Source: an uncultured Flavobacteriaceae bacterium (GTDB taxonomy: Bacteria; Bacteroidota; Bacteroidia; Flavobacteriales; Flavobacteriaceae). Taken from it: DNA of 64,000 nt. Both the position numbers and the translations under genes were made by a program. The DNA lies in the NCBI GenBank assembly GCA_947494825.1, contig CANLWN010000001.1, positions 868,001 through 932,000 on the forward strand, read 5' to 3'. Position 1 is the first letter of the stretch; each line of letters begins with the position of its first letter. The notes beneath the pieces are model-generated. The model did not search any database and was not told where the DNA came from. It saw only the letters and a program-made list of their open reading frames with translations. Shown one piece after another: positions 15,727 through 64,000 of the stretch.

Positions 15727-17634
15727 TTATTTCACTTCCTCAAAATCAACATCTTCCACATTGTCCCCATCCTTGGCTCCATCGGAAGCGGCTTCTTCAC
15801 CATTTGCGGAGGCTCCGCCCTGTTGTGCTTCTGCCTGCGCTTTATACATTTCCTCGGAAGCTACCTTCCAGGCCTCGTTGATTTTTTCCAAAGCGGGTTC
15901 AATAACGCCTAGATCTTTGCTTTCATAGGCCTTCTTAAGTTCCTCCAAGGCTTCCTCGATAGGTTTCTTCTTATCTTCGGAAAGCTTATCGCCAAACTCG
16001 TTCAGTTGTTTTTCCGTTTGGAAAATCATGCTATCCGCTTCGTTCAACTTATCTGCAGTTTCCTTGGCCTTTTTATCGGACTCGGCATTGGCCTCGGCCT
16101 CGGCCTTCATTTTTTGGATTTCCTCCTCGGTCAAACCGGAGGAAGCCTCGATCCTGATGTCCTGTGTTTTATTGGTCGCCTTGTCCGTAGCGGATACTTT
16201 GATGATACCATTGGCATCGATATCAAAGGTCACTTCAATTTGAGGCGTTCCCCTGGGTGCGGGTGGAATACCGTCCAAATGGAAACGTCCAATGGTCTTG
16301 TTATCCGCAGCCATAGGTCGTTCTCCCTGCAATACATGGATTTCAACCGAAGGCTGGTTATCTGCCGCTGTGGAGAATATCTGTGATTTCTTTGTTGGGA
16401 TCGTGGTATTGGCATCGATCAATTTGGTCATTACGCTGCCCATGGTTTCAATTCCCAAAGACAGTGGTGTTACGTCCAACAACAGCACATCCTTCACATC
16501 ACCAGTGAGCACCCCGCCTTGGATAGCAGCCCCAACGGCTACCACCTCATCCGGATTTACGCCCTTTGATGGTTTTTTGCCAAAGAATTTTTCCACGGCC
16601 TCCTGTACTGCAGGAATACGTGTGGATCCACCTACAAGGATAATCTCATCGATATCGCTTTTGGATAGTCCGGCCGCTTTGAGCGCTGTACTACAAGGTT
16701 CAATGGTGCGTTTCACCAAATCCTCGATCAACTGCTCAAATTTAGCCTTGCTAAGGGTACGAACCAAGTGCTTGGGCCCTGAAGCCGTAGCCGTTACATA
16801 GGGCAGGTTAATTTCGGTCTGGGCAGAGGAAGAAAGTTCGATCTTTGCTTTCTCGGCAGCTTCGCGTAAACGCTGTAGGGCCATAGCATCGTCCCTTAGG
16901 TCAATGCTCTCGTCTTTTTTGAACTCCTCGGCCAACCAATCAATAATTTTCTGATCTACGTCATCACCCCCTAAATGGGTGTCCCCATCAGTGGCCAATA
17001 CTTCAAAAACACCATCGCCCAGTTCCAAAATGGAAACGTCATGTGTTCCTCCACCAAAATCGAAAACGACGATTTTTTGATCGGTATCCTTCTTGTCCAT
17101 ACCGTAGGCCAGAGAGGCTGCGGTAGGTTCGTTGATGATTCGTTCTACGGTAAGTCCGGCAATTTCCCCGGCTTCCTTAGTCGCCTGTCGCTGTGCATCG
17201 TTAAAATATGCAGGTACGGTGATTACGGCACGACTAACACTTTGCCCTAGGTAGTCTTCCGCAGTCTTCTTCATTTTCTGAAGCACCATCGCGGATAGTT
17301 CCTGTGGGGTATACAAACGCCCGTCAATATCTACCCTTGGGGTATTGTTGTCTCCTTTGACTACTTTATAAGGTACTCTGTCAGCTTCCTTTTTAGATTC
17401 GGAAAACTTGTTGCCCATAAACCGTTTGATGGAATATATGGTCTTGTGCGGATTGGTAACCGCCTGTCTTTTTGCAGGGTCTCCTACCTTGATCTCTCCA
17501 CCTTCCACAAAGGCGATCACGGAAGGAGTCGTTCTTTTGCCCTCTGCATTTGGGATTACAACCGGTTCATTCCCTTCCATTACGGAAACACAAGAGTTCG
17601 TAGTTCCTAAATCTATTCCAATAATCTTGCTCAT
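15727..17634 (-). CDS. dnaK: Chaperone DnaK (Hsp70)
   Basis: 635 residues. The ATPase domain begins [16 protein letters not shown], contains [30 protein letters not shown] and [10 protein letters not shown]. The substrate-binding domain starts after [14 protein letters not shown] and the C-terminal tail ends [10 protein letters not shown]. It folds proteins with DnaJ and GrpE, neither of which is next to it here. Monocistronic: terminator downstream, divergent gene upstream. The upstream region lacks a TAnnTTTG box but has GACA-N3-TGTC plus TTGG-N10-GT, the same layout as clpB, suggesting common heat-stress control. Confidence 0.98.
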
Positions 17635-17685
17635 TCTATATATTTTAAATATTAGTGCTTTGTGTTTTTAACTGTTCATGGAATG

Positions 17686-17725
17686 ACAAACAATATGCCA
17701 AGGGCAAAAAACTGACAGGATGTCA
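17686..17725 (-). promoter_or_regulatory. dnaK upstream element: inverted repeat plus sigma-54-like TTGGCA...TTGT
   Basis: On the minus strand TGACA-TCC-TGTCA (17725 to 17713) is followed by TTGGCATATTGTTTGT (17701 to 17686). From the end of TGTC to TTGG there are exactly 12 nt, the same as at clpB. The TTGGCA and TTG blocks match the -24/-12 pattern of sigma-54 promoters except that GT stands where GC is expected. The element ends 51 nt before the dnaK start. Confidence 0.55.
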
Positions 17726-20201: not shown

Positions 20202-20902
20202 TGGGTACGAAAATAGTTTCCAACCCTGGCAATCTTCAGGTGGTATACGAGGATAACCACCTCATTGCCATCAACAAGAGGCCTGGTGATATTGTACAGG
20301 GCGATAAAACAGGCGATGTTCCCCTGAGCGTGGTGACCCAACAGTACCTGCGGGCAAAATACAGCAAACCGGGAAACGTATATCTGGGGGTAGCCCACAG
20401 GCTGGACCGGCCCACTTCGGGACTCGTGCTCTTTGCAAAAACCTCCAAGGCCCTCCCCCGATTAAACCGGATCTTTGCCGAAAAGGAAGCGCAAAAAGTG
20501 TATTGGGCAATTGTAAAAAATAGACCGGAAAAAGAAAGTGGGGTGCTGGTACATTGGCTAAAAAGAAATCCCAAACAAAACAAGTCCTACGCGCATATCA
20601 AGGAGGTGCCCGATAGCAAAAAAGCTATTCTGGAATATCGGCTACTCAAGAAACTGGACAACTATTTTCTCTTGGAAATTGACTTAAAAACGGGGCGCCA
20701 CCATCAAATACGGGCACAGCTTGCCGCGATTGGTTGCCCCATTAAAGGCGATTTAAAGTATGGCTCCGATCGCAGCAATAGGGACGGAAGTATCCATTTG
20801 CACGCCAAGCGGTTATCCCTGGTGCACCCGGTAAAAAAAGAAGTGCTCGAATTGACCGGGGAACTGCCCCAAGATGTGGTTTGGGAGGCCTGTACCCAGT
20901 GA
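20201..20902 (+). CDS. RluA-family RNA pseudouridine synthase
   Basis: 233 residues. The catalytic motif HRLDRPTSGLVLFAKT carries the conserved Asp; LKTGRHHQIRAQLAAIGCPIKGDLKYG is the second family block. No S4 domain is present, so it belongs to the short RluA type (TruC/RluA-like). It starts with GTG sharing a base with the lspA stop (TAGTG), which indicates translational coupling. The target uridine (rRNA or tRNA) cannot be told from sequence. Confidence 0.92.
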   Translation: MGTKIVSNPGNLQVVYEDNHLIAINKRPGDIVQGDKTGDVPLSVVTQQYLRAKYSKPGNVYLGVAHRLDRPTSGLVLFAKTSKALPRLNRIFAEKEAQKVYWAIVKNRPEKESGVLVHWLKRNPKQNKSYAHIKEVPDSKKAILEYRLLKKLDNYFLLEIDLKTGRHHQIRAQLAAIGCPIKGDLKYGSDRSNRDGSIHLHAKRLSLVHPVKKEVLELTGELPQDVVWEACTQ

Positions 20903-47287: not shown

Positions 47288-47410
47288 CATCCCCAAAAAA
47301 AAGCGGGTTTCACCGATTTTATACGATATTTTACCGTTTTGCGTTATGTAAAAAGGCAAATTTGGCATAGCTATTGAAACCTGTGCCTCAAAACCCTTAA
47401 GTAAAACATC

Positions 47411-49104: not shown

Positions 49105-49146
49105 CCGACATTTTGTCGGTTAAATCGTGTTGGTAGGGTTGTTGCT
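49105..49146 (+). promoter_or_regulatory. clpB upstream element: inverted repeat plus sigma-54-like TTGGTA...TTGCT
   Basis: CCGACA-TTT-TGTCGG (49105-49119) carries GACA-N3-TGTC (49107-49117). Exactly 12 nt later comes TTGGTAGGGTTGTTGCT (49130-49146), which fits the sigma-54 pattern TTGG-N10-GC with correct spacing. No TAnnTTTG box occurs before the ATG at 49192. The same arrangement with the same 12-nt gap precedes dnaK. Confidence 0.6.
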
Positions 49147-49191
49147 CCTACCCTATCAAAAGTAAGCATTGCACTAGAAAAAAACAGACAT

Positions 49192-51792
49192 ATGAACCTT
49201 AATAATTTTACTATAAAATCGCAAGAGGCCATACAACAGGCGCAGCAAATTGCGCAGGGTTTGGGGCATCAACAAATCGAAAATGAGCATATTTTCAAGG
49301 CCATTTCCGAGGTGGACGAGAACGTACTGCCGTTCATACTCAAAAAGTTGAACGTTAATATTCCGTTGCTTCATCAGGTATTGGAGAAGGAATTGGAGAG
49401 CTATCCCAAGGTAGATGGTGGAGAGCTTTTGCTCTCCAGGGAATCGGGTAAAACCCTGACCGAAGCCAGCAACATAGCAAAAAAGATGCAGGACGAATAT
49501 GTTTCCATTGAGCATCTGCTATTGGCTATTTTTAAATCGAAGAGCAAAATTGCCCAGATTCTTAAGGATCAGGGTGCCACGGAAAAAGACCTACAAGCAG
49601 CCATTGGAGAGCTTCGGAAGGGCGGTAAGGTGCATTCCCAAAGTGCCGAGGACACTTATAACGCCTTGAGCAAATATGCCAGGAACTTGAATGAACTGGC
49701 CGATAGCGGCAATTTGGATCCCGTCATCGGTCGTGATGAAGAGATTCGTCGTGTACTCCAGATCTTATCGCGAAGAACCAAGAACAACCCTATGTTGGTC
49801 GGTGAGCCCGGGGTGGGCAAAACAGCCATAGCGGAAGGTTTGGCCCATAGAATCGTACAGGGGGATATCCCTGAAAATCTAAAGGACAAAACACTTTATT
49901 CATTGGACATGGGTGCCTTGATCGCTGGTGCCAAATACAAAGGTGAGTTTGAAGAGCGCCTAAAAGCGGTCATTAAGGAGGTTACCACTTCTGATGGCAA
50001 TATTGTGCTTTTTATTGATGAAATACACACTCTGGTGGGCGCAGGGGGCGGACAAGGGGCCATGGATGCGGCCAACATACTTAAACCCGCTCTGGCAAGG
50101 GGCGAATTACGCGCCATTGGTGCCACCACCCTTGACGAGTACCAAAAATACTTTGAAAAGGACAAGGCGTTGGAGCGCCGGTTTCAAAAAGTAATGGTGG
50201 CCGAGCCCGATACGGACAGTGCCATCTCCATATTGCGGGGTATTAAGGAAAAATACGAGGCCCATCACAAGGTCCGCATCAAGGATGAGGCTGTCATTGC
50301 CGCTGTGGAATTGTCACAACGGTATATTACCAATAGATTTTTGCCGGATAAGGCCATTGACCTTATGGACGAGGCCGCCTCAAAACTCCGTATGGAGATC
50401 AATTCCAAACCCGAGGAACTGGATGTTCTTGACCGAAAAGTAATGCAGTTGGAAATTGAGATCGAGGCAATCAAACGAGAGAACGACACTACCAAGCTAA
50501 AGGTCTTGAACGTTGATCTTGCCAATTTAAAAGAGGAACGCAATGAAATTTTTGCAAAATGGGAGAGCGAAAAAACAGTGGTAGACGAGATACAAAGGAC
50601 AAAGCAGGATATTGAGAACTATAAGCTTGAAGCCGAACGGGCAGAACGCAATGGGGATTACGGAAAGGTCGCAGAAATCCGCTATGGCAAGATTAAGGAG
50701 TCCCAAGAAAAGCTCGAGGAATTGCAGGAGGAACTGCAGGCCCAACAAGAATCCGAAACCTTGATCAAGGAAGAGGTCACCAACGAGGATATTGCAGAGG
50801 TGGTTGCCAAATGGACGGGAATCCCGGTAACCAAAATGTTGCAAAGTGAACGGGAAAAATTACTGGGCCTGGAGCAGGTATTGCACAAAAGGGTAGTTGG
50901 CCAGGAAGAAGCCATCAATGCGGTATCAGATGCCATACGAAGAAGTAGGGCGGGTCTTCAGGACACCAAGCGTCCCATTGGATCCTTCCTTTTTTTAGGG
51001 ACGACCGGAGTGGGTAAAACAGAACTTGCAAAGACCTTGGCAGCTTATTTGTTCGATGATGAAAATGCCATAACAAGAATCGATATGAGCGAATATCAGG
51101 AAAGACATGCCGTAAGCAGGCTGGTAGGCGCACCTCCTGGGTATGTAGGATATGATGAGGGCGGACAGCTTACGGAGGCCGTGCGTAGAAGGCCTTATTC
51201 CGTGGTCCTGTTAGATGAAATTGAAAAGGCGCATCCGGACACCTTCAATGTACTCCTACAGGTTCTGGACGAAGGAAGGCTTACTGATAACAAGGGTAGG
51301 ATAGCGGATTTCAAAAACACCATCATTATTATGACCAGTAATATGGGCAGCCATATCATACAGGAGAAATTTGAAGCTGCACGCGATATCGACAGCGCCG
51401 CCGAAATGGCAAAAATCGAGGTACTGGGGCTTTTGCGAAAAAGCATGCGCCCCGAATTTCTGAACAGAATTGATGATATTATTATGTTCACCCCTTTGAG
51501 CATGGAAGACATCACCAAAATCGTAGCGCTGCAATTGGATCAATTGAAAAAAATGGTATCCAAGCAGCACATTACATTGGATGCTACCGAAGAAGCCATT
51601 GCCTATCTGGCCAAGAAGGGGTATGATCCGCAATACGGAGCGCGACCCATTAAAAGGGTCATGCAAAAAGAAGTGTTGAACAGTCTATCAAAGGCGCTGC
51701 TCAGCGGAACCATAAAGGCGGACAGCATTATCCTGCTCGATTCTTTTGACGATGAACTAGTCTTCAGAAACCAGAACGAAATGGTCCAATAA
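49192..51792 (+). CDS. clpB: ATP-dependent disaggregase ClpB
   Basis: 866 residues. N-terminal repeat domain starting [35 protein letters not shown]1 with Walker A GEPGVGKT and Walker [16 protein letters not shown]; the ~110-residue coiled-coil middle domain (~400-520) that separates ClpB from ClpA/ClpC; NBD2 with Walker [14 protein letters not shown] and [26 protein letters not shown]-terminal [13 protein letters not shown]. It works with DnaK to dissolve aggregates. Single gene with terminator. It shares an upstream element with dnaK. Confidence 0.97.
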
Positions 51793-63722: not shown

Positions 63723-64000
63723 TAGCGGTGCCTATATTTTTTTTGTGATGGGGGTTTCCGGCTGTGGAAAGTCGACCATCGGCAAATTACTTGCCAAAAC
63801 GCTGTCGATCCCTTTTTATGATGGGGACGATTACCATCCCGAAACCAATATTGCGAAGATGAGCGCCGGAGAGCCTTTGAACGACCAAGACCGTGCCGGA
63901 TGGCTCCGGACCCTCAATAGGCTTGCAAGGGAAAATGCAGCTACCGGTGCGGTGATAGCCTGCTCCGCTTTAAAAGTGTCCTACAGAGATCTGTTGAAGG
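63715..64000 (+). CDS. gntK: Gluconokinase, N-terminal part cut by the window edge
   Basis: 95 residues visible. Begins [21 protein letters not shown], a P-loop near residue 13-20, followed by [19 protein letters not shown] and [15 protein letters not shown], then [13 protein letters not shown], the typical order for GntK. It phosphorylates gluconate. It overlaps the last 8 nt of miaA. The C-terminus is beyond the window. Confidence 0.93.

Follow-up and report, generated by a model that had tools for sequence, protein, structure and literature searches.

What switches on the main chaperone genes of the class Bacteroidia? The question is raised by a stretch of 64,000 nucleotides from an uncultured Flavobacteriaceae bacterium (the whole 64-kb stretch is termed the window here), in which the upstream regions of dnaK and clpB share a short palindrome, GACA-N3-TGTC, that is followed at the same distance by a sigma-54 type promoter element. 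Sigma-54 promoters at chaperone genes are not new to this phylum: in Flavobacterium psychrophilum, mapped starts of the -24/-12 class precede groES-groEL, lon, dnaK, grpE-dnaJ, htpG and clpB, as given in the main text of PMC9723704, and an in-silico survey (PLoS One 2025, PMC12316311) describes in its main text sigma-54 enrichment at chaperones of Bacteroidota and Planctomycetota. A previous reading of this DNA from its sequence alone (henceforth the sequence-only reading) had held that no Bacteroidota design of this kind was known, which these two studies make too strong. We have come across no activator named for the chaperone genes in either, and a Bacteroidota heat-shock activator or its site is likewise named nowhere in the literature that we searched, a scope excluding most subscription journals. 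With the sigma-54 part already known, the new elements are a palindrome in helical phase with the promoter, its likely activator, and the retention of that activator in small genomes. Together they describe a switch that appears, from comparative analysis, to control the main chaperone genes across Bacteroidia, including very small symbiont-like genomes.

A shared element upstream of dnaK and clpB

The features of the window on which the analysis builds are the following.

15727..17634, minus strand: dnaK, 635 aa (curated models NF001413 and TIGR02350)
17724-17714, minus strand: proposed activator (enhancer) palindrome GACA-TCC-TGTC before dnaK, GACATCCTGTC, which spans roughly -50 to -40 relative to the predicted start
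17701-17687, minus strand: sigma-54 type -24/-12 element of dnaK, TTGGCATATTGTTTG, 12 nt past the palindrome
49107-49117, plus strand: proposed activator (enhancer) palindrome GACA-TTT-TGTC before clpB, GACATTTTGTC
49130-49144, plus strand: sigma-54 type -24/-12 element of clpB, TTGGTAGGGTTGTTG, 12 nt past the palindrome
49192..51792, plus strand: clpB, 866 aa (curated model TIGR03346)

By sigma-54 convention, transcription is predicted to start at about 17674-17675 for dnaK and at about 49156-49157 for clpB. On the minus strand, the dnaK upstream region reads TGACA-TCC-TGTCA, 12 nt and then TTGGCATATTGTTTGT; on the plus strand, that of clpB reads CCGACA-TTT-TGTCGG, 12 nt and then TTGGTAGGGTTGTTGCT. 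Both had been reported in the sequence-only reading and are present letter for letter. The marks of sigma-54 membership, a -24 GG and a -12 G(C/T) at fixed spacing, occur before both genes. Perfect copies of GACA-N3-TGTC are found in the window only at dnaK and clpB (two, with 0.48 expected), and at least two arose in 7 of 100 shuffles of the window. The TAnnTTTG box, said to be missing from both upstream regions, is indeed absent from the 220 nt examined before dnaK; the clpB region contains a single copy, TACGTTTG, at -166 relative to the start codon and well above the sigma-54/palindrome element.

Chaperone operons are elsewhere marked by the palindromes CIRCE (TTAGCACTC-N9-GAGTGCTAA) and HAIR (CTTGAGT-N7-ACTCAAG). 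Within the 64-kb window, CIRCE gave no match with up to 3 mismatches, and HAIR gave a single match at 20630 (1.95 expected) and none at dnaK or clpB. As a separate observation, TTGGNA-N6-TTG has 10 matches in the window, with 4.7 expected, and TTGGCA-N6-TTG is found without a perfect palindrome at 47362-47376 (plus), 51037-51051 (plus) and 63783-63797 (minus); some of these extra matches may be further sigma-54 promoters and some may be chance.

Specificity across the genome, class and order

The genome from which the window derives (4,538,061 bases in 32 contigs) contains exactly two perfect matches to GACA-N3-TGTC-N12-TTGG-N10-G, namely those at dnaK and clpB of the window. Near matches lie directly before two other chaperone operons, grpE-dnaJ (C2:342988, 1 mismatch) and groES-groEL (C6:97357, 2 mismatches). 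The only other one-mismatch match in the genome (C1:11676) falls within an unrelated reading frame, which we count against a regulon. Matching with two mismatches was discarded as a signal in its own right: it gave 75 matches in this genome against 72 in the reversed control, and since such loose matching cannot separate signal from chance, two-mismatch matches were used only together with the gene read behind them.

For the class, a strict form was searched (GACA-N3-TGTC-N12-TTGG-N-A-N6-TTG), yielding 40 matches in 37 of 396 Bacteroidia genomes and none in the reversed control. A gene could be assigned to 33 of the 40, in every case htpG, grpE, dnaK, clpB, lon, hsp20 or trxA; among these 33, none lies elsewhere than before a chaperone, protease or thioredoxin gene. 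They comprise 28 of 29 fetched loci (11 htpG, 7 grpE, 3 dnaK, 1 clpB, 2 lon, 2 hsp20 and 2 trxA), dnaK and clpB of the window, and, assigned by coordinates, clpB of G368 and grpE of G002 and G075; the rest of the 40 are L087, whose gene is cut at a contig end, and six left unread. Naming was by eye from N-termini for 10 of the 11 htpG, one of the two lon and one of the two trxA; the proteins checked with models are one htpG, one lon, one trxA and two hsp20. The chaperone enrichment that the sequence-only reading had offered as a check thus holds in the genome as well as in the 396-genome search. The two trxA (thioredoxin) loci with the strict element, L062 and L063, belong to two genomes of the same family (f41), an observation which suggests that thiol repair belongs to the regulon in some lineages.

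When the gap between palindrome and promoter box was left free from 0 to 30 in an order-wide search of 395 genomes, 98 genomes matched, with 8 hits in the reversed control. By gap, the 111 hits fall into 59 at 12, 31 at 13, 8 at 22-23 and 13 at other values; their genes were read only where the hits were shared with the strict class search or the small-genome search.

Palindromes in helical phase with the promoter

The strict form is absent from 359 of the 396 genomes; promoters selected by gene provide a fairer test. Protein or family searches of 60 genomes supplied dnaK, clpB and grpE with their upstream DNA; with the genome of the window added, the set comprises 140 class promoters from 48 genomes and, for other classes, 33 promoters from 13 genomes. 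Selection by gene is independent of the motif, and the best sigma-54 box within 350 nt served as anchor; its weights were hand-set after hits had been seen, and palindrome phase had no part in them. No clpB match was obtained in G041, G082, G081, G005 and G010, and two were dropped for a missing N-terminus (G713, G084); the clpB set leaves out G022, G004, G014 and G039 and counts G037 twice. Where two grpE occur (G030), the better one was used.

Among the class promoters, a sigma-54 box scoring at least 20 precedes 47 of 48 dnaK, 44 of 48 grpE and 31 of 44 clpB genes. At p<=0.01, boxes beat block shuffles for 34 dnaK, 35 grpE and 5 clpB; with only 5 of 44 passing, the clpB boxes must be called weak, which argues against a common regulon. 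In a comparison of 256 half-sites with 9 spacers each, GACA-N3-TGTC tops the single-gap counts, with 36 occurrences at gap 12. The distances from palindrome to -24 box form a series (12-13, 22-23, about 33-34, 43-45, 53-54, 64-67, 74-77 and 85-86), whose best-fitting period over gaps 16-75 comes to 10.5 bp, the phase being shifted by 0.08 bp relative to gap 12. Of the distal sites (gaps 16-109), 35 of 37 lie within 2 bp of phase, where 43% would be expected; the ten perfect ones among them are without exception in phase. As kinship between genomes violates independence, the p-value for the phasing is not a true probability, and weight was placed on these perfect sites and on the 21 families from which the distal sites stem. 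The 45 proximal and 37 distal sites observed compare with block-shuffle means of 0.14 and 2.9, and with 0 and 1 in reversed sequences. An in-phase site is present in 75 of 140 promoters and in 45 of 48 genomes (shuffled mean 1.1 for each); conversely, 65 of the 140 class promoters lack any in-phase match of at least 7/8, a further point against the regulon.

The gap of 12 nt, taken as fixed in the sequence-only reading, is therefore the commonest spacing and one member of a helical series, not a universal constant. An activator that touches the polymerase needs sites spaced by the helical repeat of DNA, which an operator that acts by blocking does not. Judged by this general feature of promoter biology, the spacing series favors the enhancer of an AAA+ activator over a blocking operator. 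Of the earlier proposal of a sigma-54 box with a palindromic operator, the -24/-12 box and the palindrome at a set distance stand, and a phased enhancer site takes the place of the operator.

The promoters of groES show the same arrangement, with a sigma-54 box of score at least 19 in 41 of 43, 8 proximal sites, and 25 of 28 distal sites in phase; several of the distal sites overlap the terminator of secG. A 7/8 match to the palindrome (TGACAAGCTGGCA) lies at gap 32-35, close to helical phase, within a hairpin resembling a terminator that follows secG; it stands about 100 nt before groES in the genome of the window (L044, G000:C6:94500-101000) and occurs also in L134-L136, L142 and L147. Terminator and enhancer may share sequence there, or this may be coincidence. 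Elsewhere in the phylum, outside the class, a 7/8 site is present at 5 of the 33 promoters, too few to claim.

A candidate activator encoded beside miaB

The sigma-54 gene rpoN is present in the genome of the window and in 61 of 61 sampled genomes of the phylum. The genome encodes five strong bacterial enhancer-binding proteins (bEBPs, AAA+ activators), four of them with a receiver or cNMP-binding domain. The fifth (C6:93652-94917) begins with its AAA+ domain, ends in a Fis-type HTH and has no recognised sensor domain; its gene stands in the order miaB-bEBP-lptE-secG-groES-groEL. It matches PF00158 with 223 bits, and the PF02954 HTH was detected in the protein itself and in all four of the distant orthologs examined. 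Among 16 aligned orthologs, the sigma-54 loop reads GAFTGA or GSFTGA in 15 and GSFTSA in L099, and the HTH core LGIS(E/Q)RTLYRKI hardly varies. All 119 class genomes give a match at E<=1e-60, in 116 of them with at least 50% identity; G103, G111 and G146 have only weaker matches of about 44% identity, which may be other bEBPs. In 80 named loci, of which only 60 reach 5 kb downstream, miaB lies upstream in 47, groES downstream in 37, and both are present in 32.

The likely activator of the chaperone promoters is this PspF-like bEBP without sensor domain, usually encoded beside miaB. Against curated PspF models it stays below the cut-off (272.9 of 443.55 and 224.6 of 529 bits), so that we regard it as a protein that would work like PspF without filing it as PspF. 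The aligned orthologs also share a conserved stretch, E-x4-YK-x-LFDM-x2-D-x-NDLK, at residues 282-309 between the AAA+ lid and the HTH, which could be a contact site for an inhibitor acting in trans. An AlphaFold model (mean pLDDT 54.9 from 16 rows) has a low-confidence helix at these residues and was put to no further use.

The operon of this bEBP has the palindrome in its own upstream region. Counting 47 miaB loci, minus three with too little upstream DNA, plus the one in the genome of the window, the palindrome precedes miaB-bEBP in 40 of 45 regions, against 2.2 on average in shuffles, and in 29 of those 40 a TAnnTTTG follows 17-21 nt after it. Sigma-A promoters of Bacteroidota have a -33/-7 consensus and, given this distance to TAnnTTTG, the TTG of the palindrome falls at the position of the -33 box. 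No consistent sigma-54 box precedes miaB (score at least 20 in 6 of 44 regions). The geometry is that of negative autoregulation, by which the bEBP would repress its own synthesis. Among loci without miaB, a self-site stands directly before the bEBP gene in 2 of 32 (L162, L199), a scarcity that counts against the regulon; when palindromes of every type within 350 nt are counted, 6 of the 32 have one.

Co-retention in small genomes

The 25 small genomes considered (0.2-1.3 Mb), chosen by size from the class and order searches, comprise 23 of family f106 together with G081 and G287, and include only 10 of the many genomes of genus g267, a 0.6-Mb genus of f106 that, at a guess from its size and order, looks like Blattabacterium. 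Of the 25, 18 have rpoN, and all 18 keep the miaB-type bEBP (49-62% identity), in 17 of them beside miaB. In 17 of the 18 it is also the only strong PF00158 protein; G287 has a second. Six of the 7 small genomes without rpoN have no strong bEBP; in the seventh, G658, a short contig encodes a divergent one. Since sigma-54 promoters require a bEBP, sigma-54 transcription in genomes with a single bEBP left should pass through that protein.

Several of these genomes also keep sites. Six of the 10 g267 genomes have one before grpE-dnaJ, a perfect palindrome in G638 and a symmetric variant in five; these 5 of 6 small-genome grpE sites read GTCA-N3-TGAC, off consensus, which weighs against the regulon. 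Sites before htpG occur in 2 of 10 g267 genomes and in G740, and 3 of 5 genomes of 0.3 Mb have perfect groES sites at gaps 23, 33 and 44, all in phase. Also adverse is G081, which keeps rpoN and the bEBP and has good sigma-54 boxes at dnaK, and in which no 7/8 palindrome was found at dnaK or grpE. The pattern search of the small genomes gave 18 hits, comprising 9 at grpE or htpG, 7 in one repeated stretch, and 2 isolated. The repeated stretch, GACACATTCTCAATCTTTTGAAAGTTGG, is nearly identical in all seven genomes that have it, six of g267 and the rpoN-less G718, at about 205-239 kb (loci L116, L118, L125, L128, L129, L131 and L132). It fits the search pattern with 1-2 mismatches; no reference gene matched it, and it is probably conserved coding DNA. 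The retention of rpoN in Walczuchella, Uzinura and Blattabacterium is called unusual in the text of the Walczuchella genome paper, which suggests a link to nitrogen products (PMC3971599).

Proposed model and alternatives

We consider it likely that the chaperone genes of Bacteroidia form a sigma-54 regulon, activated by the PspF-like bEBP via the phased palindrome, with probable autoregulation. The proposal draws on the whole-genome specificity, the 40 matches against 0 in the class, the phasing, the near-universal bEBP and its synteny, the self-site, the co-retention with rpoN in small genomes and the mapped F. psychrophilum starts. RNA polymerase with sigma-54 (RpoN) would occupy the TTGG-N10-G(C/T) box, where it cannot open DNA alone. 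The miaB-linked bEBP would bind GACA-N3-TGTC through its Fis-type HTH, centred at about -45 or whole helical turns upstream, and its AAA+ ATPase would open the promoters of dnaK, clpB, grpE-dnaJ and groES-groEL and, in relatives, also those of htpG, lon, hsp20 and trxA. It would probably limit its own synthesis through the palindrome overlapping the -33 region of its operon's sigma-A promoter. The presumed signal is heat. Because the bEBP has no recognised sensor domain, our guess is that an inhibitor acting in trans keeps it inactive, perhaps a free chaperone, in the way that PspA restrains PspF. Enhancers of sigma-54 promoters typically lie about 100-150 bp upstream, as stated in the text of PMC7057263; a site at -45 is unusual by this measure and counts against the model.

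The same short distance favors a different reading, in which the palindrome belongs to a separate regulator, for instance a heat-labile HrcA-like repressor, and a bEBP opens the sigma-54 promoters from another place or from solution. Short palindromes next to the polymerase are classical operators by position, the proximal site at -45 is nearer than usual bEBP sites, and the site at the miaB promoter is placed for repression. Helical phasing out to about -110, though, fits an activator and is needless for blocking; moreover, the operon of the bEBP has the palindrome in front of it too, the miaB-type bEBP persists in the small genomes that retain rpoN, and the window is without CIRCE, its one HAIR-like match being at chance level and away from dnaK and clpB. 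We therefore hold a separate regulator to be unlikely.

Another bEBP, a response regulator or a protein with a cNMP domain, might instead be the activator, leaving the miaB-linked protein to other promoters. Such candidates exist, given that four of the five strong bEBPs of this genome have sensor domains and that, according to the main text of PMC9723704, F. psychrophilum has three PF00158 proteins and sigma-54 promoters in more than one expression cluster. The small genomes speak against it, 17 of 18 with rpoN having the miaB-type bEBP only and several of them having sites; so do the self-site before the miaB-linked bEBP's operon and the proximity to groES in the 32 of 80 named loci that also show miaB. 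This assignment appears less probable still than a separate regulator. That dnaK and clpB resemble each other by chance, as the near-equal counts of two-mismatch matches and reversed controls would allow, is refuted by the 40 against 0 matches in 396 genomes and by the helical phasing, with the perfect matches in this genome lying only at these two genes; we give it practically no weight. Returning to the miaB-linked activator, a wider version is possible, though we would sooner doubt than assert it: the core heat-shock response of Bacteroidia would rest on one sensorless AAA+ activator, held off directly by a chaperone, sitting beside sigma-54 polymerase at -45 without a long DNA loop and repressing itself, a circuit not of the sigma-32 or HrcA type that would explain why Blattabacterium-like and scale-insect symbionts keep rpoN.

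If the model is true, the chaperone genes of a class to which gut commensals, fish pathogens and insect symbionts belong gain the master regulator so far missing, and sigma-54 systems gain an example in which the enhancer often adjoins the promoter and keeps helical phase with it. The persistence of rpoN in very small genomes of flavobacterial symbionts would also receive a testable explanation: in those examined, rpoN travels with the miaB-type bEBP and, in several, also with sites before chaperone genes.

Relation to known systems

HrcA/CIRCE and HspR/HAIR resemble the proposed regulon in that one regulator and one palindromic site serve several chaperone operons; they are repressors on other promoter types, unlike the sigma-54 element described here. 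PspF is a close parallel in architecture, likewise with the AAA+ domain first, no N-terminal sensor and a Fis-type HTH, and PspF represses its own synthesis. The SM4 promoters of F. psychrophilum are of the same -24/-12 class and precede the same genes as the element in the window; as signals for them, the main text of PMC9723704 reports blood agar, osmotic pressure, plasma and freshwater rather than heat shock. The survey in PMC12316311 places in-silico sigma-54 promoters at the same chaperone families, and the palindrome is what sets our element apart from it: 'palindrom' occurs in the main text of neither study, nor do 'UAS' or 'upstream activ' in that of the survey. PspF is controlled in trans by PspA, as described in the text of PMC7057263, much as we imagine for the miaB-linked bEBP, and the phage-shock system differs in its targets, in its site, and in having its enhancer about 100-150 bp upstream, where the palindrome described here often lies at -45.
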